From Flavobacterium oncorhynchi (GTDB taxonomy: Bacteria > Bacteroidota > Bacteroidia > Flavobacteriales > Flavobacteriaceae), in assembly GCF_002217355.1 (NCBI RefSeq), contig NZ_MUHA01000006.1, forward strand, positions 62,001 through 126,000: a DNA stretch of 64,000 nucleotides, in the 5' to 3' direction. Below are positions 4,713 to 48,052 of this stretch, in pieces. Below the pieces are notes generated by a model, which was given only the letters and a program-made list of their open reading frames with translations, ran no database searches and had not been told where the DNA came from. Within the stretch, counting starts at the first letter, position 1. Every line of letters starts with the position of its first letter. The translations under genes and the position numbers were made by a program.

Positions 4713-6692
4713 TTATTCTTTAGGAACAATACGTGTTAATCCAATGTTTTCTGGAGCATGAAGCACCATTGGGAATTTCTCTACTTTAACAGAACTGCTG
4801 TCTAAACCAAAAGCTCTTTCTTCAGACAAACTCAGTTTCTTGATAAAGAAATACGAGTTCATGATGATGTTTTCGTGCCATCTTAAATCGTTGTCATTTG
4901 ATAAAAATTTCTCAGACAATACAAATTTAAAGTCTCCAATAATATTGTTTTTGTTCAATGATTCGTAACGACTTGTAATATCAACTTCACCACGTTTCAC
5001 CATATCTCGAATTACTTCTCTAAACATTAAATTGATTTTTGTAGGTTCTCTAAATCCTAAATTAAAATCGATTCTGTAAATGTCGTCTTTAGCAATTTCT
5101 GTAACTTTATATTGTGTTTTATAAGGTTCAGTAAGAATGTTTACGTGAACAAACCAATAAATATCGGCTCTTTTTGGACGTTTTTGTAAGATCGAATAAA
5201 TTACTTTTTCCTCTAATTCGTCAACGCGATTTGCATTAGTCATATAGACTAAGTGCGTAGCATATTTAGGAATAGAAAGGTCTTCGCTCAACTCCATTAA
5301 TACCTTTTTGTAATCGTCAATTTTGACAACTTTTGTATAATTCTTGTTGATTTTTTTAGCAAGATACCAAATCGTCATTATTGAAATTAATATACTCGCA
5401 ATGATTAAAGTTACATAACCTCCTTCGGCAAATTTTGTAATGTTTGCAATAAGGAAACTGAATTCTATTAATAAGTAAATAGTAATAAGAGGCACCATGA
5501 AATACAGTTTTACGCGTTTCATGATTAAGTAATAATTCAGTAAAATGGTCGTCATGATCATACATAAAATAATTGCAAGACCATAGGCATGCTCCATGTT
5601 TCCTGATTTTTCAAAGTGCAATACAATACCAACACAACCAAAAAACAATAACCAGTTTATTGACGGAATATACAATTGCCCTTTAACTTCAGTAGGATAT
5701 TTGATTTTTACTTTTGGCCAAAAATTCAAACGCATTGCTTCATTAATCAAAGTAAATGAACCACTGATAAGTGCTTGAGAAGCAATAACTGCTGCTAAAG
5801 TGGCTACAACGATACCAAATGGTAAAAACCAATGCGGCATAATAAGGTAAAACGGATTTCCGTTTTCACCGCCTAATTGTTGTAAAGTACTTCCTTCATG
5901 ATGAATAAGATAGGCAGCCTGACCAAAGTAATTTAATACTAAAGTCGTTTTTACAAACATCCAGCTTATTCTAATATTTTTTCGACCGCAATGTCCCATG
6001 TCTGAATACAAAGCTTCAGCTCCAGTAGTACATAAAAATACAAAGCCAAGAACAAAGAAACCATCAGGATGAACTGATAATAAATGATATGCGTAATATG
6101 GATTTATAGCTTTTATAACTTCAGGGAAGTGCATGATCTGAATAAATCCTAATGTTCCTAACATCGCAAACCAAATCAACATCATTGGAGCGAAAAACTT
6201 TCCAACTAGTTTAGTTCCAAATTGTTGTATGGTAAACAGAACAAAAAGAATTGCAATTACAATATAAACAATGGTTTGAGTTTCCATTGTTGGGTAGAAT
6301 GCTCTAATTCCTTCAACCGCTGATGAAATTGAGATTGGCGGTGTAATAATACCATCTGCAAGCAGTGCGCTTCCTCCAATAATCGCGGGCACAATGAGCC
6401 ATTGTATCTTGGTTTTTTTGACTAAAGCGTATAAGGCAAAAATCCCGCCTTCGCCGTGATTGTCGGCACTTAAAGTTATAAGCACATATTTTATAGTGGT
6501 TTGTAAAGTCAAAGTCCAAAACACACATGAAATACCGCCTAATACAATGTCGGCATTAATGGTATGGTCGCCAAGAATGGCTTTCATTACATACAATGGA
6601 GATGTACCAATATCTCCATAAATAATCCCTAATGTTATCAATAAACCCCCTATAGACAACTTACTATGTAAGTTTTTATGCGATGCGCTCAT
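4713..6692 (-). CDS. kup: KUP/HAK/KT-family potassium uptake protein
   Basis: The protein has about 659 residues and some twelve membrane segments in the N-terminal 430 residues, followed by a cytoplasmic C-terminal domain. Family signatures are LGIIYGDIGTSPLYV at the start, GGIFALYALV, a GSALLADGIITPPISISSAVEG block and SQALISGSFTLI. It imports K+ together with protons. The frame stays open up to a TTG at 6719, but the ATG at 6692 (MSASHKNLHSKLSIGG) fits the family start and follows an A/T-rich TAAAAATATAC leader, so I start there. It is monocistronic, between two hairpin terminators. Confidence 0.92.
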   Translation of the reverse strand: MSASHKNLHSKLSIGGLLITLGIIYGDIGTSPLYVMKAILGDHTINADIVLGGISCVFWTLTLQTTIKYVLITLSADNHGEGGIFALYALVKKTKIQWLIVPAIIGGSALLADGIITPPISISSAVEGIRAFYPTMETQTIVYIVIAILFVLFTIQQFGTKLVGKFFAPMMLIWFAMLGTLGFIQIMHFPEVIKAINPYYAYHLLSVHPDGFFVLGFVFLCTTGAEALYSDMGHCGRKNIRISWMFVKTTLVLNYFGQAAYLIHHEGSTLQQLGGENGNPFYLIMPHWFLPFGIVVATLAAVIASQALISGSFTLINEAMRLNFWPKVKIKYPTEVKGQLYIPSINWLLFFGCVGIVLHFEKSGNMEHAYGLAIILCMIMTTILLNYYLIMKRVKLYFMVPLITIYLLIEFSFLIANITKFAEGGYVTLIIASILISIMTIWYLAKKINKNYTKVVKIDDYKKVLMELSEDLSIPKYATHLVYMTNANRVDELEEKVIYSILQKRPKRADIYWFVHVNILTEPYKTQYKVTEIAKDDIYRIDFNLGFREPTKINLMFREVIRDMVKRGEVDITSRYESLNKNNIIGDFKFVLSEKFLSNDNDLRWHENIIMNSYFFIKKLSLSEERAFGLDSSSVKVEKFPMVLHAPENIGLTRIVPKE

Positions 6693-6769
6693 GTATATTT
6701 TTATAAAAGACGGTTGCAAATTTACTGTTTTAAAACAAATTAGCAGCTATTATAAGTAAAAAGATAAAA

Positions 6770-6798
6770 AAAAGCACAATCCCCAAATTGTGCTTTTA
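6770..6798 (-). terminator. terminator of the low-complexity lipoprotein gene
   Basis: AAAAGCACAAT / ATTGTGCTTTT hairpin about 30 nt after the stop codon at 6828. Confidence 0.75.
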
Positions 6799-6827
6799 GT
6801 TTTAAATAAAAAATAGAAATATTTAAG

Positions 6828-8192
6828 TTATCCTCTTCGTCCGCCTTCTCTTGAACCGGAACCACTTTCTCTCTGCGGCTGGCTGCTTCTTGATTCCTGA
6901 CTTCCTCTTGATGATTCAGAACGCTGTGCGCTTTGGGATCTTGAGTAAGAGGAGTTGTCAGAACTACCTCTGTTTTGAGAATAGCTTCTTGGTGATTCTG
7001 TTCTTTGTGCCGGTGCAGCTGATTGATTGACAGTTCTGTTTGTTGAACTTCTATCAGAAGAATAACCTCTTGATGATTCTGTTCTTTGTACAGGAACACT
7101 TCTTTCAGTGCTCATTCTATTATTTGAACTTGCTCTGTTTTCAGAATAACTTCTTGATGGCTGATTTGCTTGTTCAGAAACTCTGTTTGTTCTAGTTTCA
7201 TAAGAAGTTCTTGGTGAAGAAACGTTCGAATTGTTTCTATTGTTCTCTGTTCTTACCGGATTTGATACAACTGTTGAATTTTCTCTGCTAGAATTTGTTG
7301 AACGATTCGTATTGTTATAATTTCTGTTAGATGTTGATCGGTTATCATTATAGCTTCTGTTGTTTCCAAAATCACTGTTAGAAGACACTCTGTTTGTGTT
7401 TGATCGATTTGAATTATAAGTGTTTTGAGATCTGTTTGATTCTCTGCTTGCAATTCGTCTTTGATCTAAATCGTATCTGTTTCCAGTATTAGCATGTCTT
7501 TGTTCAAAACTATAATTAGGTCTGATTTTTTCGTAACCATAAGTACGTCTTGACTCATAAAGTACAGGAGCTCTATAGCTTCTTCTATAGTTTACGTAGT
7601 TGTAGCGATTATTCACATTGATGCAAACGTTGATGTTATTTCTATATCTGTAAACAGGATACGGACTCCAAGCAGCATAATAAGTTGGATAATAATTCCA
7701 ATACCATGATGAATAATAAGGTCTATAATTGGTAACCCAGAATGAAGAATAAATCACTGGAACGACATTGTAAACGGGCTCATAAATATAGTTTGTTCCA
7801 TATAAATAAGAGTTTCCTACAATTTGAACACTTACTTTGTTGTAATTGTCTCTTTCTACATCAATAGTAGCTACGTCTTGATAAACGTCGCGATCTAATA
7901 CAGCTTGAATAATTACAACGTGTGTTCTGTTTTCTACCGATTCGATAACACGCAAATAATCAACCTGATCATCGCCGTTTAAATCAAGGTTTGAAATTTG
8001 ATATTTAGGATCATTTAAACGTCTTTCAAAGTCTTGAAGATTTGATGATTCTCCAAACATCGAGGCAACCGCTCTAAGATCTAAGTTATCACTAATGTCT
8101 GAGTTTTTTGCGTAAACAGTAGTTTGGCTTTGTGCTGAACAAGAACCTAAAACTAATGCTGCGAGCGCTATAAAAAGTAGTTTAGTTTTCAT
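6828..8192 (-). CDS. secreted lipoprotein with Tyr-rich middle and Arg/Ser/Asn-rich repetitive tail; function unknown
   Basis: The 454-residue protein begins with a lipoprotein signal (MKTKLLFIALAALVLGSCSAQ, lipobox Cys18). Residues 25-120 are ordinary globular sequence (NLDLNGDDQVDYLRVIE looks like an acidic turn-rich domain). About residues 135-200 are very rich in Tyr and Trp (for example YYSSWYWNYYPTYYAAW). From about 225 to the end the chain is almost only R, S, N, T, Q and E, with a loose repeat of S-R-x-Y-S-x-N-R / Q-R-T-E-S-x-R and the ending GSREGGRRG. The tail looks disordered and strongly basic, which would suit binding to polyanions or cell-surface packing; that is inference. I do not recognise a named family. 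Confidence 0.8.
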   Translation of the reverse strand: MKTKLLFIALAALVLGSCSAQSQTTVYAKNSDISDNLDLRAVASMFGESSNLQDFERRLNDPKYQISNLDLNGDDQVDYLRVIESVENRTHVVIIQAVLDRDVYQDVATIDVERDNYNKVSVQIVGNSYLYGTNYIYEPVYNVVPVIYSSFWVTNYRPYYSSWYWNYYPTYYAAWSPYPVYRYRNNINVCINVNNRYNYVNYRRSYRAPVLYESRRTYGYEKIRPNYSFEQRHANTGNRYDLDQRRIASRESNRSQNTYNSNRSNTNRVSSNSDFGNNRSYNDNRSTSNRNYNNTNRSTNSSRENSTVVSNPVRTENNRNNSNVSSPRTSYETRTNRVSEQANQPSRSYSENRASSNNRMSTERSVPVQRTESSRGYSSDRSSTNRTVNQSAAPAQRTESPRSYSQNRGSSDNSSYSRSQSAQRSESSRGSQESRSSQPQRESGSGSREGGRRG

Positions 8193-8377
8193 GATAAAAT
8201 CTATTAAATATTAATATTGGGAGATATCCAATTACTGTGCCACAAATTTATTTATAGCTTAATGTGTTTTTAGATGACTGTTGTATAGTTGTTTATGTTT
8301 TATTTGGATAGAAAAGTAATTTTGTTTGATGGATATTAGAGGAGGGAAAAGTTGTTTTATAAAAAAGCGAAAACTTA

Positions 8378-8407
8378 TTTGAAATGTTATAATAAATTGT
8401 ATTTTAG
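8378..8407 (+). promoter_or_regulatory. candidate promoter of the BNR-repeat protein gene
   Basis: TTTG at 8378-8381, an 18-nt spacer, then TATTTTAG at 8400-8407 (TANNTTTG with one mismatch). It ends 22 nt before the ATG at 8430, which also supports that start over upstream codons. Confidence 0.45.
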
Positions 8408-8429
8408 CAACAGCCAAATCTTATTTTAT

Positions 8430-9491
8430 ATGAAAAAACTAGTTTTATTTTGCAGTATTTTTATTTTATTGATGTCATTTCAAACATTTAATTATAAAGC
8501 CAAAGTTAATTTCAGCAGCGGTTTTACATCAATGACAATAGATACTTTGTTTAAAGATAAAATTAGTATAAGAGCAATTTTAATCGATAAAAATAAAGTT
8601 TGGTATGGAGCTGATAATTCTCGTTTTGGCTATTATGATTTAGATAAAAAAGAGAAGTTTGAAGAGCATATTTATCGTGATACACTTAAGTTAGAATTTA
8701 GAAGCATTGCACAAACTTCAAAAAATGTGTTTCTATTAAGTGTTGCAAACCCAGCATTGCTCTATTCTGTTGATAAAAAAGACAAAAAAGTGAAACTGGT
8801 TTATAAAGAGATAAATCCGAAAGTTTTTTACGACAGTATGCAGTTTTGGAATGATAAAGAAGGTATTGCTATTGGAGATCCAACAGAAGATACTTTTTCT
8901 ATAATTGTTACTCGTGATGGCGGAGAAACTTGGACTAAAATATTATCTGATAAATTGCCAACAAATGCAGTGGGAGAAGCCGCTTTTGCAGCAAGTAATA
9001 CTAATATTGTTATAAAAGGGAATGATACTTGGCTGGTTTCAGGTGGAAAAAAAGCACGTGTTTTTTATTCAGCAGATAAGGCAAAAACATGGAAAGTTGT
9101 TGAAACTCCAATTGTGCAGGGAAAAGCGATGACAGGTATTTTTACTGCAGATTTTTATGATTCTAAACACGGTTTTATTGCAGGAGGTGATTATGAGATT
9201 CCGAGTAGAAAAGTAGATAACAAGGCCTTTACAAAAGATGGCGGAAAGACTTGGGAATTGATTGGGCAGAATATGGGATTTGGTTATGCATCATGTGTGC
9301 AATACGTTCCAGGAGGAAATGGAAAAGAGATTATTTGTGTAGGCTCTGAGGGAATTCAGTATTCTCAAAATGGAGGTGAAAACTGGACACAATTATCTAC
9401 AGATACTAAATTTTTTACTGTTCGCTTTATCAATAGAAATACAGCAATAGCTGCAGGACATAATAAAGTAGTTCGACTTAATTTTAAGTAA
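8430..9491 (+). CDS. exported BNR/YCF48-like beta-propeller protein
   Basis: I start at ATG 8430 (MKKLVLFCSIFILLMSFQTF), which gives a signal peptide at the very N-terminus. The frame is open 26 codons further, but only to a TTG inside the promoter region. The mature part, about 330 residues, contains repeated Asp-box motifs: TRDGGETWTKI, SADKAKTWKVV, TKDGGKTWELI and SQNGGENWTQL, plus IAAGHNKVVRL at the end. Such blades build a six- or seven-bladed propeller as in sialidase/YCF48/oxidoreductase-like proteins. No catalytic Arg triad of sialidases is evident, so a binding or enzyme-accessory role in the periplasm is more likely. It is a single-gene unit. Confidence 0.82.
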   Translation: MKKLVLFCSIFILLMSFQTFNYKAKVNFSSGFTSMTIDTLFKDKISIRAILIDKNKVWYGADNSRFGYYDLDKKEKFEEHIYRDTLKLEFRSIAQTSKNVFLLSVANPALLYSVDKKDKKVKLVYKEINPKVFYDSMQFWNDKEGIAIGDPTEDTFSIIVTRDGGETWTKILSDKLPTNAVGEAAFAASNTNIVIKGNDTWLVSGGKKARVFYSADKAKTWKVVETPIVQGKAMTGIFTADFYDSKHGFIAGGDYEIPSRKVDNKAFTKDGGKTWELIGQNMGFGYASCVQYVPGGNGKEIICVGSEGIQYSQNGGENWTQLSTDTKFFTVRFINRNTAIAAGHNKVVRLNFK

Positions 9492-39064: not shown

Positions 39065-40582
39065 ATGAAATTCAATTTTTTAGCAAAAGAGAAAAACAAT
39101 ATAGTTAATCACGAAAATGCTCCGGCTTTTTCTTTAACATCGGAATATGAATTATATACAGCAGTTGTAACAACAAGCTTAAGTGCTTCATTTTATGAAA
39201 AAGATACAACTCGTTTGGAACGCATCAAAAATTTGATTCAAAAATGTAATCCAGTGTTTGTAGCAAAACTTGCCGTTTATGCTCGAAACGAAATGCATAT
39301 GCGTTCTGTACCATTAGTTTTGGTTGTAGAATTGGCTAAGATCTATTCTGGCGATTCTTTAATCAGTAAAATGATAATTCACGTAATTCAGCGTGCAGAT
39401 GAGATAACAGAATTGTTAGCGTATTACCAAATGGCAAACGAACGAAATGGCGTTAAAAAATTAAACCGTTTGTCAAAGCAAATACAAAAAGGTTTGGCGG
39501 TTTCATTCAATAAATTTGATGAATATCAATTGGCAAAATACAATCGCGATGGTGTGGTTAAATTAAAAGATGCTTTGTTTTTGGTTCACCCGAAAGCAAA
39601 AGATGAAGCACAGCAAGCAATCTTTAATAAAGTTGCGAGTAACACTTTGCAAACGCCATATACTTGGGAAACTGAGTTGTCGCAATTAGGTCAGGTGAAA
39701 TTCTATAATGAGAATGAAAAGCAAAAAGCATTCACTCAAAAATGGGAAGAATTGATCGACAGTGGTAAAATAGGTTACATGGCATTGTTGCGTAACTTAC
39801 GAAATATCTTAGAAGCTAATGTTTCAGGTTTTCATATGTTGAAAGTATGCGATTACCTTTCTAACGAAAAAGCAGTCGTAAACTCAAAACAATTGCCATT
39901 CCGATTTTTATCTGCTTATCGTGAACTGAAAGATTTGAATTTTAAATTAACTTCAATGGTTTTAGATGCTTTGGAAGATGCCGTTACAATTAGTTCACAA
40001 AACATAAAAGGATTTGATGTAAACACGTCAATTGTAATTGCTTGTGACGTTTCAGGTTCAATGCAACAGCCAATTTCACCAAAAAGTAAAGTATTGCTTT
40101 ATGATATCGGTTTGATGTTGGGTATGTTAATGCAAAGCCGTTGTAAAAATGTGGTAAGCGGTATGTTTGGTGATCGTTGGAAAATAATCAATATGCCAAA
40201 ACGAAGCATATTGGCCAACGTGAACGAATATTACAAACGTGAAGGTGAAGTAGGTTATGCTACAAATGGTCATTTGGTTTTGGAAGATTTGATCAGCCGA
40301 AAAGAAATTGTAGACAAAGTAATGTTGTTTACCGATGTTCAAATGTGGAATAATGCTTACACAAAAGACTCATTTGCAAACTCCTGGAACCGATACAAAA
40401 GAATCGCACCAAATGCAAAATTGTATTTGTTTGATTTGGCTGGTTACGGTCAGTTACCAATAAACATCGAAAAAAACGATGTATATTTAATAGCCGGTTG
40501 GTCTGATAAAGTGTTTGATGTTTTGAATGCTTTAGAAGATAAAAACAGCGCTTTGAATTACATTAACCGAATAGAATTGTAA
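39065..40582 (+). CDS. rsr: Ro60-family TROVE/VWA RNA-binding protein (bacterial Rsr)
   Basis: The 505 residues are the normal bacterial Ro length. Residues about 15-310 form the TROVE ring of HEAT-like helices (FVAKLAVYARNEMHMRSVPLVLVVELAK, KIGYMALLRNLRNILEANVSGFHMLKVC). The VWA domain starts with SIVIACDVSGSMQQP, an intact MIDAS (Asp328-x-Ser-x-Ser), then KVMLFTDVQMWN. Ro proteins bind Y RNAs on the outer ring and misfolded RNA ends through the hole. In other bacteria Rsr works with Y RNA and exonucleases or RtcB. Here an array of Y-RNA-like elements follows 85 nt downstream and rtcB after that, which strongly supports the assignment. Confidence 0.93.
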   Translation: MKFNFLAKEKNNIVNHENAPAFSLTSEYELYTAVVTTSLSASFYEKDTTRLERIKNLIQKCNPVFVAKLAVYARNEMHMRSVPLVLVVELAKIYSGDSLISKMIIHVIQRADEITELLAYYQMANERNGVKKLNRLSKQIQKGLAVSFNKFDEYQLAKYNRDGVVKLKDALFLVHPKAKDEAQQAIFNKVASNTLQTPYTWETELSQLGQVKFYNENEKQKAFTQKWEELIDSGKIGYMALLRNLRNILEANVSGFHMLKVCDYLSNEKAVVNSKQLPFRFLSAYRELKDLNFKLTSMVLDALEDAVTISSQNIKGFDVNTSIVIACDVSGSMQQPISPKSKVLLYDIGLMLGMLMQSRCKNVVSGMFGDRWKIINMPKRSILANVNEYYKREGEVGYATNGHLVLEDLISRKEIVDKVMLFTDVQMWNNAYTKDSFANSWNRYKRIAPNAKLYLFDLAGYGQLPINIEKNDVYLIAGWSDKVFDVLNALEDKNSALNYINRIEL

Positions 40583-40593
40583 AAAAAAGAATC

Positions 40594-40618
40594 TACTGCG
40601 CCAAATAATTGCGCAGTA
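40594..40618. promoter_or_regulatory. palindromic operator upstream of the RNA array (copy 2)
   Basis: TACTGCGC (40594-40601) and GCGCAGTA (40611-40618) pair perfectly. The centre differs from copy 1 by a single base (C for A at 40602). It begins 12 nt after the Ro stop codon. In RNA it could also act as a stem at the end of the Ro message, but a terminator T-run is missing. Confidence 0.75.
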
Positions 40619-40666: not shown

Positions 40667-40807
40667 AAACAAGTGTCGTAGATAAGTGTTACTTCGTATT
40701 GATAACGCCCGGGACGTGGGTTCGATCCCCACCAATTCTGTTTAATTACAGAAATGTAGCTCAGTGGTTAGAGCAGGATATGTCACTTATCGTTTATTGC
40801 CTTGTTT
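40667..40807 (+). ncRNA. Y-RNA-like RNA 1 with circularly permuted tRNA mimic (YrlA type)
   Basis: Outer helix AAACAAG (40667-40673) / CTTGTTT (40801-40807); internal loop TGTCGTA / GTTTATTGC; inner helix GATAAGTG (40681-40688) / CACTTATC (40784-40791); then the conserved TTACTTCGT. The apical domain is a permuted tRNA. A T-arm GTGGG-TTCGATC-CCCAC (40716-40732) comes first, then the 3' acceptor strand CAATTCTG, a loop, the 5' acceptor strand CAGAAATG (40749-40756) and TA plus a D-arm GCTC-AGTGGTTA-GAGC (40759-40774). T-loop, D-loop and 7-bp acceptor follow tRNA numbering with one mismatch. This matches the known YrlA design of bacterial Y RNAs. No anticodon arm exists. Confidence 0.85.
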
Positions 40808-40815
40808 TAAAATAA

Positions 40816-40951
40816 AAAAAGAATGTCGTAAATAAGAGTTACTTCGTCTCAAATTTGGGGAGGAATAGCGAAGTTGTAAAATCAGCAAGGTTATCCAGTT
40901 CGACTCTGGCAAGACAAGCCCCGTTTCTCTTATTGCTTTTTACTTCTTTTT
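40816..40951 (+). ncRNA. Y-RNA-like RNA 2 with tRNA-like arms in normal order
   Basis: Outer helix AAAAAGAA (40816-40823) / TTCTTTTT (40944-40951); internal loop TGTCGTA / GCTTTTTAC; inner helix AATAAGAG (40831-40838) / CTCTTATT (40927-40934); then TTACTTCGT. The apical part has GGGG (40857-40860) pairing with CCCC (40919-40922) as an acceptor-like stem. ATAGCGAAGTTGTAAAATC resembles a D-arm and CCAG-TTCGACT-CTGG is a T-arm (40895-40909). Here D comes before T, as in a real tRNA, and no anticodon arm fits between them. Confidence 0.75.
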
Positions 40952-40956
40952 AAAAC

Positions 40957-41027
40957 TGAAAAATGTCGTGTATAAGAGCTACTTCGTTTAGGTTGAATAT
41001 TAACTCTTATAAATTATTACTTTTTCA
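40957..41027 (+). ncRNA. Y-RNA-like RNA 3, minimal, no tRNA mimic
   Basis: Outer helix TGAAAAA (40957-40963) / TTTTTCA (41021-41027); internal loop TGTCGTG / AATTATTAC; inner helix TATAAGAG (40971-40978) / CTCTTATA (41004-41011); then CTACTTCGT and a short AU-rich apex (TTAGGTTGAATATTAA) with no tRNA arms. Confidence 0.75.
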
Positions 41028-41032
41028 AAAAA

Positions 41033-41118
41033 TTAGATGCCGTCTATAAAGCGCTACTTCGTGGCATGATAATATTAGGTTCGAATCCTAAAAGTCGCTT
41101 ATAGAATATTGCTCTTAA
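41033..41118 (+). ncRNA. Y-RNA-like RNA 4 with a lone T-arm
   Basis: Weak outer pairing TTAGA (41033-41037) / TCTTAA (41113-41118); internal loop TGCCGTC / GAATATTGC; inner helix TATAAAGCG (41045-41053) / CGCTTATA (41096-41103), one bulged A; then CTACTTCGT. The apex holds a perfect T-arm, TTAGG-TTCGAAT-CCTAA (41075-41091), but no D-arm or acceptor. Confidence 0.72.
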
Positions 41119-41190
41119 AAAAGAGTGTCGTCAGGAAATGGTTCCTTCGTTCCAAAGAAATTTAAACCATTCCTAAGTGTTACCTCTTTT
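41119..41190 (+). ncRNA. Y-RNA-like RNA 5, minimal, divergent stem
   Basis: Outer helix AAAAGAG (41119-41125) / CTCTTTT (41184-41190); internal loop TGTCGTC / AAGTGTTAC; inner helix AGGAAATGG (41133-41141) / CCATTCCT (41167-41174), one bulged A; then TTCCTTCGT. The stem sequence differs from the other four at most positions yet still pairs. No tRNA-like arms. Confidence 0.72.
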
Positions 41191-41243
41191 AAAATTAAAA
41201 AATGAATGTTGAACATCAATTAAATAAAATTAAAGACACAGTG

Positions 41244-41345
41244 TGTCATTTCGAGGAACGAGAAATCTCCACGAGAAGCTCTACAAAGATTGGCGATTTT
41301 GATTGCGGAATTACTTGCGAAGATTTCTCGTTCCTCGAAATGACA
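41244..41345. repeat. R1 palindromic repeat, copy 4 (102 bp), changed but still complementary arms
   Basis: The left arm starts TGTCATTTCGAGGAACGAG and the right arm ends CTCGTTCCTCGAAATGACA. Compared with copies 1 and 2 two bases differ (CGAGGAACG for CGACGAAGG), and both arms changed together. Confidence 0.88.
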
Positions 41346-41363
41346 AACGGCGTGTTAATCACT

Positions 41364-41474: not shown

Positions 41475-42896
41475 ATGAAAACACAAATAAACGGTACAGA
41501 TATATTAGAATTAGGATTCCCAGAAGGAAAAATAATCGGAATCGCCTTAAAAATAAACAGCAAAAGAAACGGATTCACAAGAGACGAAATGATTACAAAT
41601 TTCAAAAACGTCTTAGAAACTCCGGAGAATTATATAGAGGATAAAATCTTCAGCAAATTAGCCGTTGCTTTAATCGAAAAATCAAATGAAAAACCAGAAG
41701 ATTTCATCGCTTTAAATGAAAATCCGAATGCGTATTCGGCTTACGGATTAGATCATATTGAAGACGGAGCCAGAAAACAAATGGAAGTTGCCATGAAACT
41801 TCCTGTTACGGTTGCGGGCGCTTTAATGCCAGACGCGCACCAAGGTTACGGATTGCCAATTGGCGGAGTTTTGGCTACAAAAAATGCCATTATTCCGTAT
41901 GGTGTTGGAGTTGATATTGGATGTAGAATGGCGTTATCGGTTTATGATATTCCAGAAGATTTTTACTTTGAAAACGAAGCTAAATTCAAAAGAGAATTAA
42001 TCGCGCATTCTAAGTTTGGAGCAGGTCACGGATTTCACGGTCAGTACAAATCAGATCATGCGGTTTTGGAGAATGAGACTTTCAATATGAATCCGTTTGT
42101 GAAGAACTTGAAAGATAAAGCCTGGTCGCAATTAGGATCTTCGGGTGGTGGAAATCACTTTGTGGAATTCGGAATCATGGAATTTGCGCAAGACGATGCA
42201 GTTTTGAATATCCCAAAAGGAAAATACGTCGCTTTGTTAACGCATTCCGGTTCACGCGGAATGGGAGCCACAATTGCCGGACATTATACGAAAATCGCCA
42301 AAGACGAATGTAAACTTCCAGAAGTGGCCAAAAACTTAGCGTATTTAGATATGAATTCGCAATTAGGTCAGGAATACTGGCTGGCGATGAATTTGGCGGG
42401 AGATTACGCTTCGGCTTGCCACGAGATTATCCATAACAAAATGGAACGCACTTTGGGTACGACGATTTTAGCCAAAGTCGAAAACCACCATAATTTCGCC
42501 TGGAAAGAAATCTGGAACGGCGAAGAAGTAATCGTACATAGAAAAGGAGCAACCCCAGCCGGAAAAGGCGTTATGGGAATCATTCCGGGAAGTATGACCG
42601 CACCGGGATTTTTGGTGAGAGGAAAAGGCGAGGAGAACGCCATTAATTCGGCGTCGCATGGAGCAGGAAGACAAATGAGCAGAACCCAAGCCATAAAAAA
42701 CATCACACAAACCGAAATGAAATCCATCCTGAAAGATCATGGCGTTACGCTTATCGGAGCAGGACTTGACGAAGCCCCAATGGTGTATAAAGATATCAAT
42801 CAGGTGATGGAAGCACAACAGGATTTAGTGGATGTTGTGGCGAAGTTTACACCGAAACTGGTTAGAATGGCAGATGATGGAAGCAGAGAAGATTAG
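41475..42896 (+). CDS. rtcB: RtcB-type RNA ligase
   Basis: The 473 residues form the Mn2+/GTP-dependent ligase that joins 2',3'-cyclic phosphate (3'-phosphate) to 5'-OH RNA ends. The active site is intact: MPDAHQGYGLPIGGV (Asp, His), GVDIGCRMAL (Cys150), GSSGGGNHFVEFG, LTHSGSRGMG, HRKGATPA and INSASHGAGRQMSR with His395 as GMP acceptor. The start is ATG 41475 (MKTQINGTDILELGFPEGK); the frame opens further upstream only into repeat sequence. It is the third component of the Ro / Y-RNA / RtcB repair locus, on the same strand. Confidence 0.95.
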   Translation: MKTQINGTDILELGFPEGKIIGIALKINSKRNGFTRDEMITNFKNVLETPENYIEDKIFSKLAVALIEKSNEKPEDFIALNENPNAYSAYGLDHIEDGARKQMEVAMKLPVTVAGALMPDAHQGYGLPIGGVLATKNAIIPYGVGVDIGCRMALSVYDIPEDFYFENEAKFKRELIAHSKFGAGHGFHGQYKSDHAVLENETFNMNPFVKNLKDKAWSQLGSSGGGNHFVEFGIMEFAQDDAVLNIPKGKYVALLTHSGSRGMGATIAGHYTKIAKDECKLPEVAKNLAYLDMNSQLGQEYWLAMNLAGDYASACHEIIHNKMERTLGTTILAKVENHHNFAWKEIWNGEEVIVHRKGATPAGKGVMGIIPGSMTAPGFLVRGKGEENAINSASHGAGRQMSRTQAIKNITQTEMKSILKDHGVTLIGAGLDEAPMVYKDINQVMEAQQDLVDVVAKFTPKLVRMADDGSRED

Positions 42897-44198: not shown

Positions 44199-45146
44199 AT
44201 GGGATTTGACAAATCTGACTATTTATTTAATGTGCTAGAAACACATAAAATGAAACATATCGATTCATTATTCGATAAGTTTAAAGAAAGAAGAAAAGAG
44301 ATTAAAGAGAAGTTAGAGGAAAAGTTTGGTGATGATATTTATACAACTTTTAATTCAGGATCTTATGCTAAACATACTGCTGTAAATGCCAAATTTGATT
44401 TGGACATTGTTGCTCCTTGTAAAAGAAATTCTTTTTCCACAATAACAGGAATGTTTGATGACTTTTTTGATTTTTTGCAAACGGAATATAAAGAGATAGC
44501 TTATGTACGAAAACAAAAAGTTTCTATTGGAATTGAATTCTTTGCAGATGAAGATAATGAAGTTGTGCAAATTGATGTAGTACCGGGAAGAGAATTGAAG
44601 CAAGGAGATTATCCAAATGATAATTATCTTAATATAAATATAAATGTTGATGGTTCAAATTATACCCAAACTAACATTCATGCTCAAATAGAGAATATAA
44701 AAGGAAAGAGTGATGCGAGACAAATAATTAGACTTCTTAAAATATGGAAATACCAAAATTATAAGGATTATAAATCTTTTTTCATTGAATTAATTGTAAT
44801 CAAAGCATTTGAAAACAAAATTGTTTCTGGCAGTTTATGGTCAAAATTTAAAACGGTCTTGGAATACATTATAGATGAAATTGAAGAAGATAATTTTTCT
44901 TTAAAAGATCCTGGTAATTCGAGTAATGATATTGCGAAAACAATGGATAGTTATAAAAAAACTTTACTAAAAAACGATCTAAAATTTTTACTAGATCAAG
45001 TAGAGTTAAATGATGAAAATTTAAAAAATCATTTTAAAGAAAACGAAAAATTTAAATTTGTTGAGCAATCTTCTGAATCTAAGGGATCTTATAGAGTTAA
45101 TGATTCATCTAGAGCTATTATTCCTCCTAGTAATCAATTTGGGTAA
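44199..45146 (+). CDS. CD-NTase (cGAS/DncV-like nucleotidyltransferase) of a CBASS-like operon
   Basis: The 315 residues contain the polymerase-beta core: FNSGSYAKHTAVNAKFDLDIV with Gly54-Ser55 and Asp67-x-Asp69, and the third acid Asp126 in VVQIDVVPG. A helical nucleotidyltransferase C-domain follows (ARQIIRLLKIWKYQNYKDYKSFFIELIVIKAF). It should make a cyclic oligonucleotide signal on phage infection. The C-terminus is a flexible tail ending in IPPSNQFG with a terminal Gly, as expected for the protein that the neighbouring E2-E1 enzyme conjugates in type II CBASS. The base composition is AT-richer than tatD and rtcB. The next gene starts 3 nt after its stop. Confidence 0.88.
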   Translation: MGFDKSDYLFNVLETHKMKHIDSLFDKFKERRKEIKEKLEEKFGDDIYTTFNSGSYAKHTAVNAKFDLDIVAPCKRNSFSTITGMFDDFFDFLQTEYKEIAYVRKQKVSIGIEFFADEDNEVVQIDVVPGRELKQGDYPNDNYLNININVDGSNYTQTNIHAQIENIKGKSDARQIIRLLKIWKYQNYKDYKSFFIELIVIKAFENKIVSGSLWSKFKTVLEYIIDEIEEDNFSLKDPGNSSNDIAKTMDSYKKTLLKNDLKFLLDQVELNDENLKNHFKENEKFKFVEQSSESKGSYRVNDSSRAIIPPSNQFG

Positions 45147-45149
45147 TAA

Positions 45150-46754
45150 ATGGAAGAAAGATTAAGTGCAATTATAAATATTTTTCAACAGTTTGATGAT
45201 CTTAAAATAATTAAAAATTTTGAGATCATCGATAGTTACATAAGTGGAAAAATTGAGATTTCGTGTTTACAGAAACCTAATATTATTTTTGATGTTAAAA
45301 TTTCAAATAATTATCCTCTAAAATCAGGTACTGTAGAGTCAATAAGTTTTATAAATAAAAATCTAAAAAAATATTCCCATATAAATTTTGATGGATCTGT
45401 CTGTTTTCATAATCCAACACATCCAGATTTAGAATATAAATTAGAGTTTGATATTAAGGCATTATTGGAGTGGGTCGATAAATATTATATTAAGGAATTA
45501 AATGACGGGCACTTTGAATATCTTTTTTATAAAAATCAGGATTCAAATCAAGTTTTTTTATTTTCTGATCCTGATAATTCAATCACTAGAGAGGATTTTG
45601 GTTTTATGTTTTTTAATAAACATAGTACATTTAATGATAAAAATACATTTTTGATCCAAGGATTAAAGAGTCAAACTGGAAGAAATAATATTATTTTTGG
45701 ATGGAGTAAATATTATAGCGGGTTTAAAGGAGCAAATAAAGGATTGTATTACATTGCAGAAAAACCACCAGTTTATTACCGCAATTTTGCTTATGAGAAG
45801 TGGTCTGATTTTAAAACTATTTTATCGAATGAGTTTTTTAAGTTTCTAAATGATTCCAAAAGACATATTGAAAGAAAGCATTTATTAGATAATAAATACT
45901 TGATATTATTGTATGGCTATCCAATAGATAATGAAAAAATGCATTTTGAGACTTTAAAAATTGATTATTATAACATTCCAATTTTTAAGAATGAAATTTC
46001 CGATGATTATATTACATGGTGTAAAACGGTAGACAGTTCTTATGAATTGTTTTTTGGAAGGGGAAAATTAAATGATAATTTGACTGAAAAGAAAATATTA
46101 ATAATAGGAATAGGCGCTGTTGGTAGTAGTTTATCTGAATCTTTAGTGAGAGGAGGGTGCAAGTATGTCGATATTTTAGATTACGATATTAAAGAAATTG
46201 GAAATATATGTAGAGCGAAGTATAATTTTATGCATGGAGAGAGACCAAAGGTAGATGAATTAAAATTTTCGCTAATTGCGATTTCTCCTTTTGTAAATGT
46301 AGAAAGTTATAATCTACCATTATTACCACTTCAAACACTACCAGATTTAAAAAAGAATTATGCTGATTATTTAGATAAATATGATTTTATTTTTAATTGT
46401 TCTGCTAGTAATGATGTTAATATTATTTTAGATCAACTAGAAATTAAAAATAAAACAATTGTTAGTATATCGATATCAAATCATGCTAATGATTTAGTAT
46501 GTATAATCGGAAATGAGAATATATATAACAGTAATTCAGAGATTTTTCAAGAAATTAACCAAGATTTAATTGATATGTTCAATCCTCAAGGTTGCTGGAA
46601 TCCTACGTTTAAAGCATCGTATCACAATATCAATGCTTTAGTCAATTATGCATTAAGTAACATTGATTATAGATTAAAGAAAGGACTTGCATTGAAAACA
46701 TTTTTATTACAAGTTGCAGAAGAAAGTAATTATAAAATTAATTTAAAAGATTGA
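45150..46754 (+). CDS. cap2: E2-E1 fusion of type II CBASS (Cap2-like, ThiF family)
   Basis: The 534 residues begin with a UBC/E2-like domain containing INFDGSVCFHNP, Cys85 being the candidate E2 cysteine. From about 300 a ThiF/E1 domain follows: ILIIGIGAVGSSLSESL (ATP loop GxGxxG near 315-325), DILDYDIKEIGNICRAKYNF and a later NPQGCWNPTF with Cys482 as the candidate E1 cysteine. In type II CBASS this enzyme joins the CD-NTase C-terminus to a target and so primes cyclase activity. The gene fits tightly between the CD-NTase and the JAMM gene. Confidence 0.88.
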   Translation: MEERLSAIINIFQQFDDLKIIKNFEIIDSYISGKIEISCLQKPNIIFDVKISNNYPLKSGTVESISFINKNLKKYSHINFDGSVCFHNPTHPDLEYKLEFDIKALLEWVDKYYIKELNDGHFEYLFYKNQDSNQVFLFSDPDNSITREDFGFMFFNKHSTFNDKNTFLIQGLKSQTGRNNIIFGWSKYYSGFKGANKGLYYIAEKPPVYYRNFAYEKWSDFKTILSNEFFKFLNDSKRHIERKHLLDNKYLILLYGYPIDNEKMHFETLKIDYYNIPIFKNEISDDYITWCKTVDSSYELFFGRGKLNDNLTEKKILIIGIGAVGSSLSESLVRGGCKYVDILDYDIKEIGNICRAKYNFMHGERPKVDELKFSLIAISPFVNVESYNLPLLPLQTLPDLKKNYADYLDKYDFIFNCSASNDVNIILDQLEIKNKTIVSISISNHANDLVCIIGNENIYNSNSEIFQEINQDLIDMFNPQGCWNPTFKASYHNINALVNYALSNIDYRLKKGLALKTFLLQVAEESNYKINLKD

Positions 46755-46755
46755 A

Positions 46756-47223
46756 GTGATATTAAAAAATGCTGAAACTGGTTTACAAATAGAATTTGAA
46801 GATGAAATCATTAAAGAATTTGAAAAAATTGCATTAAAATTTTATCCTAATGAAATAGGAGGATATCTTATGGGATATTATACTGAAGATAAAAGTAACG
46901 CAGTAATAGTCAAACAAATTCTTTCTAATAATTTTGAGAATTCTCCAACTTCATTTAGACATGTTGTAGATCAGAAACTAAAAGAAAAATTTATAAAAGT
47001 ATTTAATGAAGAAAAGATTCACTATTTAGGAGAGTGGCATACACATCCCAACTCAAATTCAAATTATAGTTTAACAGATTTTAATGCTTTAAAAAAAATA
47101 GCTAATAATAAAGATTCTAATATTAATAATCCAATTTTACTGATAATTGGATTTGATAAGACAGGAATCAAAGACTATAGTTTTAATGTTTTCTTTAATA
47201 ACAAATTATATAAATATGAGTAA
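46756..47223 (+). CDS. cap3: JAB/JAMM metalloprotease of type II CBASS (Cap3-like)
   Basis: The 155 residues show a complete JAMM zinc site: Glu33 (EIGGYLMG), His95-x-His97 and, exactly ten residues further, Asp108 (EWHTHPNSNSNYSLTD). Cap3 removes the conjugate made by Cap2. The start is a GTG at 46756, one base after the Cap2 stop (the frame is closed upstream and no ATG precedes the domain). The 3' end overlaps the start of the nuclease gene. Confidence 0.9.
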   Translation: MILKNAETGLQIEFEDEIIKEFEKIALKFYPNEIGGYLMGYYTEDKSNAVIVKQILSNNFENSPTSFRHVVDQKLKEKFIKVFNEEKIHYLGEWHTHPNSNSNYSLTDFNALKKIANNKDSNINNPILLIIGFDKTGIKDYSFNVFFNNKLYKYE

Positions 47224-48052
47224 AATAAATTTAAAGGAGTTATTTGGAGGTTTGCAGAATCAAATGGTAGCACAATTAAACACCAATCGTGAATATATTA
47301 GTCATCCTGGCTCTGTAGGAGATGCTTTAGAAAATGTTTGGATTGATTGGTTAAGAAAGTATCTCCCTAACAGATATTGTGTTGATAAAGCTATTGTCAT
47401 TGATTCTAATGGAAATACTAGTCATCAAATAGATGTCGTAATTTATGATCAACATTTTACTCCTTTCGTATTTAATCAAAATGGGTTTATTTATATTCCT
47501 GCAGAAGGAGTTTATGCTGTTTTTGAAGTAAAACCTGATTTTGAAGGTAGTGTAGCTGTATCGAAAAGTGAAACAATTAGCTATATAGAATACGCAGGTA
47601 GAAAAATTCAAAGTGTTAGGGAGTTAAAAAGGACTTCCGTTGGAATAATTAATGCAGGAGTTCCTTGGAGCCCAAGACCGTTAACAAAAATTATTGGAGG
47701 AATATTAGCAAGTACTAATAGTATTAAGAAGCAAACAACTCTAAACAATCATTTACAGAACTTAACAGGATTAAAAACCATGGAAATGGGATGTTCGATA
47801 GAATTCGGAAGTTTTTATATTGATTATGAAGGGGTACAGGAACTTTCTATAGACAATGTCCAAGAAAACATAGAAAAGTATTACATGAATAGAACAATTA
47901 AAGATATCGAATATAGTGATAAGGAAGTTTCTCTTGTTTCTTTTTTTCTTCAATTAACTCATTATTTACAGCAAGTTATAGGGACAGTAGCATCTATTGA
48001 TCTAGATTCATATGCTAAAGCAATTGGATTTAGTATTGATAAAAGTATATAA
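47216..48052 (+). CDS. DUF6602-like PD-(D/E)xK nuclease, probable CBASS effector
   Basis: The real start is ATG 47216, overlapping the cap3 stop in ATGAGTAA (translational coupling). The frame's upstream part belongs to cap3. The 278 residues begin with helices (FGGLQNQMVAQLN, SVGDALENVWIDWL), then a nuclease core: HQIDVVIYD (Asp73) and YAVFEVKPDF (Glu104-x-Lys106), with SVGDALE supplying the alpha-helical acid. This is the PD-(D/E)xK pattern of DUF6602. The C-terminal 130 residues (TRTIKDIEYSDKEVSLVSFFLQL, TVASIDLDSYAKAIG) are unassigned. It is the only candidate effector in the operon; no SAVED or TM domain is seen, so how it would sense the signal is unclear. Confidence 0.8.
   Translation: MSKINLKELFGGLQNQMVAQLNTNREYISHPGSVGDALENVWIDWLRKYLPNRYCVDKAIVIDSNGNTSHQIDVVIYDQHFTPFVFNQNGFIYIPAEGVYAVFEVKPDFEGSVAVSKSETISYIEYAGRKIQSVRELKRTSVGIINAGVPWSPRPLTKIIGGILASTNSIKKQTTLNNHLQNLTGLKTMEMGCSIEFGSFYIDYEGVQELSIDNVQENIEKYYMNRTIKDIEYSDKEVSLVSFFLQLTHYLQQVIGTVASIDLDSYAKAIGFSIDKSI

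Follow-up and report, generated by a model that had tools for sequence, protein, structure and literature searches.

A tandem array of five predicted Y RNA genes with a common handle and differing heads beside ro60 in Flavobacterium

The ro60-rtcB locus

In the window (i.e., the whole 64,000-nucleotide stretch of Flavobacterium oncorhynchi DNA that was analysed), a gene for a Ro60 orthologue, five structured elements and a gene for the RNA ligase RtcB lie in that order, with both protein genes on the + strand (Table 1). The first-pass annotation, made from the letters alone, had proposed five tandem elements of one plan at 40667-41190. All five are present, with the positions and outer helices that it gave, and the gaps between successive copies measure 8, 5, 5 and 0 nt, as expected from its range of 0-8 nt. 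No Rfam family reaches its gathering score anywhere in the window, and neither ARAGORN nor RF00005 at gathering level reports a tRNA gene there.

Table 1. Features of the locus, by position in the window
Feature	Position	Strand	Basis
Ro60 orthologue, 505 aa (TROVE and vWA-like, DxSxS motif)	39065..40582	+	Pfam PF05731
E1, predicted Y RNA, permuted tRNA-like head	40667..40807	+	helices; R1 match 1.2e-6
E1 outer helix	40667-40673/40801-40807		
E1 T arm, GTGGG-TTCGATC-CCCAC	40716..40732	+	sequence; Rfam YrlA alignment
E1 acceptor-like stem, CAATTCT / AGAAATG, 6 of 7 pairs, 10-nt closing loop	40733..40756	+	
E1 D arm, GCTC-AGTGGTTA-GAGC, TA before it	40759..40774	+	
E2, predicted Y RNA, conserved linear T-arm head	40816..40951	+	66-sequence alignment A2; R1 2.7e-33 (own genome; E2 is a training sequence of R1)
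E2 outer helix	40816-40823/40944-40951		
E2 head, GGGG/CCCC stem enclosing two-part arm and T arm, linear order	40857..40922	+	
E2 two-part arm	40865-40869/40890-40894 and 40873-40876/40883-40886	+	
E2 T arm	40895-40909		
E3, predicted Y RNA, 16-nt loop head	40957..41027	+	helices; R1 match 1.2e-6
E3 outer helix	40957-40963/41021-41027		
E4, predicted Y RNA, T-arm-only head	41033..41118	+	helices; R1 match 4.4e-4
E4 outer helix	41033-41037/41113-41118		
E4 predicted tRNA elbow, GG (41063-41064) and T arm TTAGG-TTCGAAT-CCTAA (41075-41091)	41063..41091	+	
E5, predicted Y RNA, 16-nt loop head	41119..41190	+	helices; detector match
E5 outer helix	41119-41125/41184-41190		
RtcB RNA ligase, 473 aa counted from ATG	41475..42896	+	Pfam PF01139 2.1e-82

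The upstream protein belongs to the TROVE family, matching PF05731 at 106.9 bits (cut-off 23, E 1.9e-30); its match to the vWA_Ro60 model PF25045 (4.3e-4) lies under that model's own cut-off. The sequence DVSGS is invariant among 10 Ro60 orthologues. Profile matches link the protein to the solved Ro60 structures 1yvp (1.6e-6) and 9nen (1.4e-6), with only 0.15 for the Rsr structure 2nvo. With 27.4 of the 900 bits that the Rsr equivalog model NF041674 (NCBIfam) demands, the window protein falls short of that cut-off and therefore represents a divergent Ro60 branch.

Several other features lie nearby. Directly past the ro60 stop codon, a hairpin (CTGCGC...GCGCAG, 40596-40616) recurs upstream of the array in many relatives, and is a possible terminator or processing site ahead of the array. 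Between E5 and rtcB, a long inverted repeat (GTGTCATTTCGAGGAACGAGAAATCTC..., 41242-41347) is probably a dispersed intergenic repeat; it lies outside the array and gives rise to strong-looking matches to miRNA families at 41241-41350, which we rejected as spurious. Further downstream, at 44199-48052, consecutive genes for a SMODS nucleotidyltransferase and ThiF/E1-like, JAB and DUF6602 proteins look like a CBASS-type defence operon, with matches to NCBIfam CBASS models that are all under their cut-offs.

The handle and its link to Ro60

Each element runs from an outer helix through a 7-nt strand opposite a 9-nt strand to an inner helix, followed by YTMCTTCGT. We refer to this basal part as the “handle” and to what it encloses as the “head.” The exact 7 x 9 loop of the first-pass annotation holds for all five window copies; in relatives, the spacing is mostly, but not always, exact. 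When 3' spacings of 8, 9 and 10 nt were allowed and spacing was not scored, the best pairing fell at 9 nt for 287 of 417 sites, at 8 nt for 86 and at 10 nt for 44. The loop is conserved as claimed, but it is not wholly unpaired, since two pairs are possible across it: the G of TGYCGT with the C of TTRC, and the Y of the former motif with the R of the latter. In A2, an alignment of 66 E2 homologues whose elements were found by the detector described below, the first of these pairs is G-C in 60 sequences and G-U in six, and the second is U-A in 50, C-G in 13, U-G in two and unpaired in one. Because the Y and the R change jointly, the conserved loop is probably smaller than was thought; taken singly, the Y-R pair misses significance in the tree-aware test below (E 0.70). 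The revised handle thus consists of an outer helix, a bulged U, two pairs, a small loop and an inner helix. The inner helices are as annotated, except that the one in E4 carries a bulged A (TATAAAGCG/CGCTTATA).

The plan of the elements is far from what chance yields. We ran a motif-plus-pairing detector over the sequence downstream of Ro60 in the window and in 35 fetched loci of the genus (36 regions; 43,661 bases). It reports 157 elements, as against none in any of 20 dinucleotide shuffles of these regions and none on their minus strand. The sole region without elements adjoins a distant second TROVE gene, that of genome G315. Across the whole window, on both strands, the detector reports four of the five elements and nothing else, E4 being missed probably because of its bulge. 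Since the detector scores pairing, the handle was also tested on 417 distinct sites chosen by the 5' motif alone. Their pairing with their own downstream sequence averages 28.2, as against 16.8 (sd 4.2) with foreign sequence; own pairing exceeds all 40 foreign sequences at 253 of the sites and fails to do so at 164. The TTRC motif, which was not scored, is present at 313 of the 417 own sites, compared with 50 of 200 foreign ones. For the core pattern of class-B elements, 83 of 90 occurrences lie inside detected elements (overlapping genomes counted twice). Five of the seven missed ones resemble class-B elements by eye; for one (L127) no handle partner stands out, and the last matches by chance. 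Viral contigs contain no occurrence.

The helices of A2 covary. Overall, 96.2% of the cells in paired columns are paired. Both sides have changed in 25 of the 35 pairs, where shuffled alignments average 16.6 and none of 500 reaches 25. The covariation score of 0.453 drops to 0.089-0.146 when the partner is slid by 1-3 columns. We also used a tree-aware null of 60 simulated alignments, in which the substitutions are placed anew on the tree (a purpose-written script, not R-scape). For the whole of A2, six column pairs reach E<0.05, and all six are in the proposed structure: one in the outer helix, three in the inner helix and two in the head. The remaining 29 structure pairs do not reach E<0.05 in this test, nine of them with a score of zero, as their columns show little variation or vary on a single side. 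The covarying helices of the first-pass annotation are thus borne out against shuffle, slide and tree-aware controls, and in this alignment compensatory change conserves the predicted handle. Homologous loci retain the helices, where their loss would have spoken against selected structure. Some E2-type elements stand apart: one (in G306, L035) has no TG of TGYCGT, and in another (in G170, L049) the detector's 3' partner lies farther out and the alignment is poor.

The array is tied to Ro60 across genomes. A scan of 398 genomes of the genus by motif only was dropped as too loose, since it matched 227 of them and a reversed control also matched in many (uncounted). It was replaced by R1, an RNA covariance model built from A2. 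A search of this kind, for which the first-pass annotation had proposed a model of the five copies, matched 36 of the 398 with R1, with R1 trained on part of the genomes that it recovers: all 35 with a TROVE match over the cut-off and one of the 363 others. In the window genome, R1 at E 0.001 does not report E5. G342, with a broken, sub-threshold TROVE match, has no R1 match. Besides the window, all 34 close Ro60 loci of the genus bear elements; as noted, only G315's distant second TROVE gene lacks them. In a second, overlapping set, we examined the best 80 of 312 named Ro60 loci, from Flavobacterium, Chryseobacterium, Pedobacter, Epilithonimonas, Sphingobacterium, Cesiribacter, Taibaiella and several MAGs; these genera belong to the Bacteroidota. 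Elements lie downstream of Ro60 in 79 of these 80 loci, with 1 to 11 per locus, and the lone exception has just 198 bases of downstream sequence. RtcB, by contrast, was found within a downstream stretch of mostly ~4 kb in no more than 25 of 35 genus loci and 25 of the same 80 of 312 named loci. Since many array loci show no RtcB in that stretch, the constant partner of the array is Ro60, and the link to RNA repair is not general.

The single R1-positive genome without TROVE over the cut-off, G388, has an orphan array on its one contig (C1:3044031-3045274, L235), with five detector matches, two of them overlapping. No Ro60 or RtcB gene was found in the 10-kb stretch examined with this array, and no TROVE match genome-wide. 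It could reflect either recent loss of Ro60 or a role independent of Ro60.

Heads of the elements

The first-pass annotation took the five copies as equal. They are so in the plan of the handle; their heads differ, and three have tRNA-like parts. Among 594 elements in two overlapping sets of loci, 479 distinct heads occur.

In E1, the head runs from T arm to acceptor strand, 10-nt loop, second acceptor strand, TA and D arm. Read from its sequence, this is the upper half of a tRNA, opened at the anticodon, closed at the acceptor and thereby circularly permuted. Across permuted heads, acceptor strands of the same module average 6.3 of 7 pairs, and re-dealt strands 4.27; the pairing was measurable in 174 of 232 permuted modules, with overlapping genomes counted twice. 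The order T, acceptor, D of YrlA-type RNAs occurs in E1 only and not in E2 to E5. Correspondingly, the YrlA model RF02553 matches E1 alone of the five elements, at 24.5 bits, without reaching its gathering score of 69; in seven loci of relatives it gives 41.3 bits at best. Junctions between neighbouring tRNA genes in the window genome score 27.5, 27.4 and 26.8 bits, i.e., more than E1, so the YrlA match is unspecific, and when E values up to 10 are admitted, 13 of 14 control genomes also give sub-cut-off matches. We therefore do not count the E1 match as proof of membership. Because the YrlA model matches tRNA junctions, one possible origin of the permutation is a captured tandem-tRNA junction, which would give a permuted head at once. 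At one locus, L124, tRNA genes flank the array on both sides in two runs (1515-2727 and 6475-8451), with 18 Rfam tRNA matches over the gathering score, some of them weak; such surroundings could allow the capture of tandem tRNA junctions in the form of permuted heads. Chained permuted tRNA-like units also occur upstream of Ro60 in two Chryseobacterium loci (L150:1424-1603 and L153:1461-1595), where they match YrlA and tRNA in Rfam and lie outside any detected Y handle.

The E2 head keeps a linear order. Each of its helices has 96.6-99.7% of cells paired in A2, and it shows compensatory changes of its own; two of its column pairs, 64-75 and 89-99, are among the six that reach E<0.05 in the tree-aware test. 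In the E4 head, GG comes before a T arm. Relatives supply 56 distinct heads of 24-50 nt, and GG occurs in the first 11 nt of all 40 that have a T arm and of none of the 16 that do not; in the 11 nt past the T arm, it occurs in 13 of the 40. As predicted from these sequences, the GG and the T arm would form the D-loop/T-loop contact, a tRNA elbow without the rest. No tRNA isotype was assigned to any head, since the best-scoring isotype varies, often by small margins. The D-loop GG and the T-loop TTC seem to be lost together (Fisher p 0.0013), but we did not rely on this: only seven of 206 counted modules are without TTC, 39 were dropped because one of the two arms was missing, and D arms were located by a crude method.

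Heads also appear to move between handles. The Ro60 genes of G202 and G366 are 96.2% identical, their 55-nt E1 handles are identical and so are their E2 heads, whereas their E1 heads are two different tRNA-like bodies (aligned identity 0.67). The E1 head of G202 groups with those of G000 and G049, two genomes with only 92.5 and 91.2% identity to G202 in Ro60 DNA. Among 20 E1-type elements, eight of the 15 pairs with handles at least 97% identical have heads below 0.70; for 29 E2-type elements, this holds for none of 71 such pairs. Divergence between E1-type elements starts right after the YTMCTTCGN strand and ends at the inner 3' strand. That close relatives combine one identical handle with different heads indicates exchange.

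Relatives have a further kind of head. Eleven of the 80 named loci (the best 80 of 312), mostly of Chryseobacterium (L115, L126, L130, L134, L142, L146, L153, L157, L161, L164 and L167), carry a head of ~165 nt that opens with 23S-like sequence. These heads, on elements downstream of Ro60, start as a near copy of a stretch of 23S rRNA (AACTATAACGGTCCTAAGGTAGCG...); on the E. coli gene, their best local alignments begin at position 1906 or 1911. The L157 head has matches in 5375 of 5426 E. coli genomes; among the matches listed, its first 30 nt are 96.7% identical to a sequence labelled 23S rRNA (E 3e-3). In L142 and L153 the 23S alignment extends over 59 nt of the head; past its start, the one such head compared with shuffles, that of L161, aligns to 23S no better than they do. 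Such heads would be a possible 23S mimic on a Ro60 handle.

Adaptors on Ro60 and known Y RNAs

With their adjacency to ro60 and their basal stem with a conserved internal loop, the elements are, as far as sequence defines them, bacterial Y RNAs in the broad sense. We consider it likely that the locus holds five Y RNA genes, as predicted, whose common handle binds Ro60 and whose differing heads link it to RNA-processing partners; the best reading of the elements is as interchangeable Y-RNA adaptors on Ro60. The array would be transcribed either together with ro60 and rtcB or independently of them, and would yield separate RNAs, each with its handle on the outer face of the Ro60 ring. The tRNA-like heads might recruit proteins that recognise the tRNA elbow or acceptor, either PNPase, as for YrlA, or tRNA-modifying enzymes, and the headless E3 and E5 may cover or gate the ring. 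Since RtcB is encoded at the same locus, the complex could serve RNA decay or repair after tRNA damage. It is also conceivable that the array works as one RNA rather than as separate ones, in which case the elements may act jointly.

More tentatively, and with odds that we would place somewhat against it, the Ro60 loci of Bacteroidota may be adaptor libraries. A constant handle would be grafted at fixed junctions onto heads, at most eleven in a genome, that copy upper halves of tRNAs, bare elbows and a 23S stretch, so that one ring could address many RNA enzymes; permutation would arise through a captured tandem-tRNA junction.

The strongest competitor, which we regard as unlikely, is that the RNAs are decoys: the tRNA-like heads (in relatives, 23S-like ones) would titrate nucleases or modifying enzymes, Ro60 would only stabilise them and RtcB would mend the damage. 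Heads that imitate targets, the adjacent rtcB and the defence-type run of cyclase, E1/ThiF-like and JAB genes downstream (44199-48052) are in keeping with this, as is the proposal, in an excerpt of PMC7790460, that the tRNA-like domain of YrlA competitively inhibits an anticodon nuclease. However, the same excerpt states that YrlA fragments were not seen in Salmonella, the heads here have no anticodon arms, E3 and E5 imitate nothing recognised, and the handle is conserved together with Ro60. We find it much less probable still that the five hairpins are a single cis-acting leader, i.e., a structured untranslated region that controls rtcB (or ro60). Copies only 0-8 nt apart between two genes of the same strand leave hardly any room for promoters between them, but each element closes its own full stem, detected copies range from 1 to 11 in the named loci (best 80 of 312), and no RtcB was found downstream, within mostly ~4 kb, in 10 of 35 genus loci (one of them arrayless) and 55 of the 80 named ones (best 80 of 312). 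That the array is debris or selfish repeats, i.e., decayed tRNA genes and repeats trapped downstream of Ro60, is hardly credible: the tRNA-like parts and the L124 array amid many true tRNA genes fit it, but the compensatory changes in the handle and the E2 head, the near-perfect co-occurrence with Ro60 and the lack of any further detected copy in the window do not.

The reading as adaptors matters because the roles of bacterial Y RNAs are largely open past a few studied cases, and it is directly testable: with one Ro60, different heads should find different partners. The locus would also be a case of tRNA mimicry cut down to the elbow (E4), joined in relatives by a head with a 23S-like opening. 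At a practical level, R1 finds Y-like RNAs where the Rfam search of the window at gathering level finds none.

The handle resembles that of animal Y RNAs, which have a Ro-binding basal stem, a bulged base and a G-pyrimidine step. To our knowledge, animal Y RNAs are without tRNA-like heads and are not encoded beside Ro60. Among bacteria, the closest comparison is with YrlA (RF02553; Salmonella, PDB 6CU1), which, like E1, has a Ro60-type neighbour and a basal stem formed by both ends with an internal loop. The Rfam consensus of YrlA also shares with the array elements the order outer helix, loop, inner helix, then CUA. In addition, the tRNA-like domain of the bacterial Y RNA 6CU1 has its T, acceptor and D arms circularly permuted, as in E1 (according to an excerpt of PMC11472068). 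E1 differs from YrlA in the letters of its handle and scores 24.5 of 69 bits, and the other four elements bear heads of other kinds. The array here counts five genes, and up to eleven were detected in relatives (best 80 of 312), as opposed to yrlB and yrlA in the Salmonella operon.

That operon, rsr-yrlBA-rtcBA, combines a Ro60 orthologue, Y RNAs and RtcB like the window, as outlined in part of PMC7790460. In contrast to it, RtcA is not among the nine neighbouring window proteins scanned, the array of relatives tracks Ro60, often without RtcB, and the Y RNAs are more numerous and more varied. A review (PMC11277228) mentions Y RNAs that precipitate with Ro60 of Bacteroides thetaiotaomicron and Propionibacterium propionicum. 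Among the literature matches listed, titles and abstract openings name no Y-RNA array of Flavobacterium or Chryseobacterium; primary papers may describe one. As for function, YrlA is reported to be a substrate of DusA and TruB and to bind PNPase (excerpt of PMC8394870), and RYPER consists of Rsr, Y RNA and PNPase (excerpts of PMC8394870 and PMC7790460). The predicted role of the elements as a tether between Ro60 and a partner resembles that of the Y RNA in RYPER, except that several different candidate tethers are present per genome here. Y RNAs, YrlA and the Ro60/RtcB locus are thus already known; what appears to be new is the modular array, as a variant of them.
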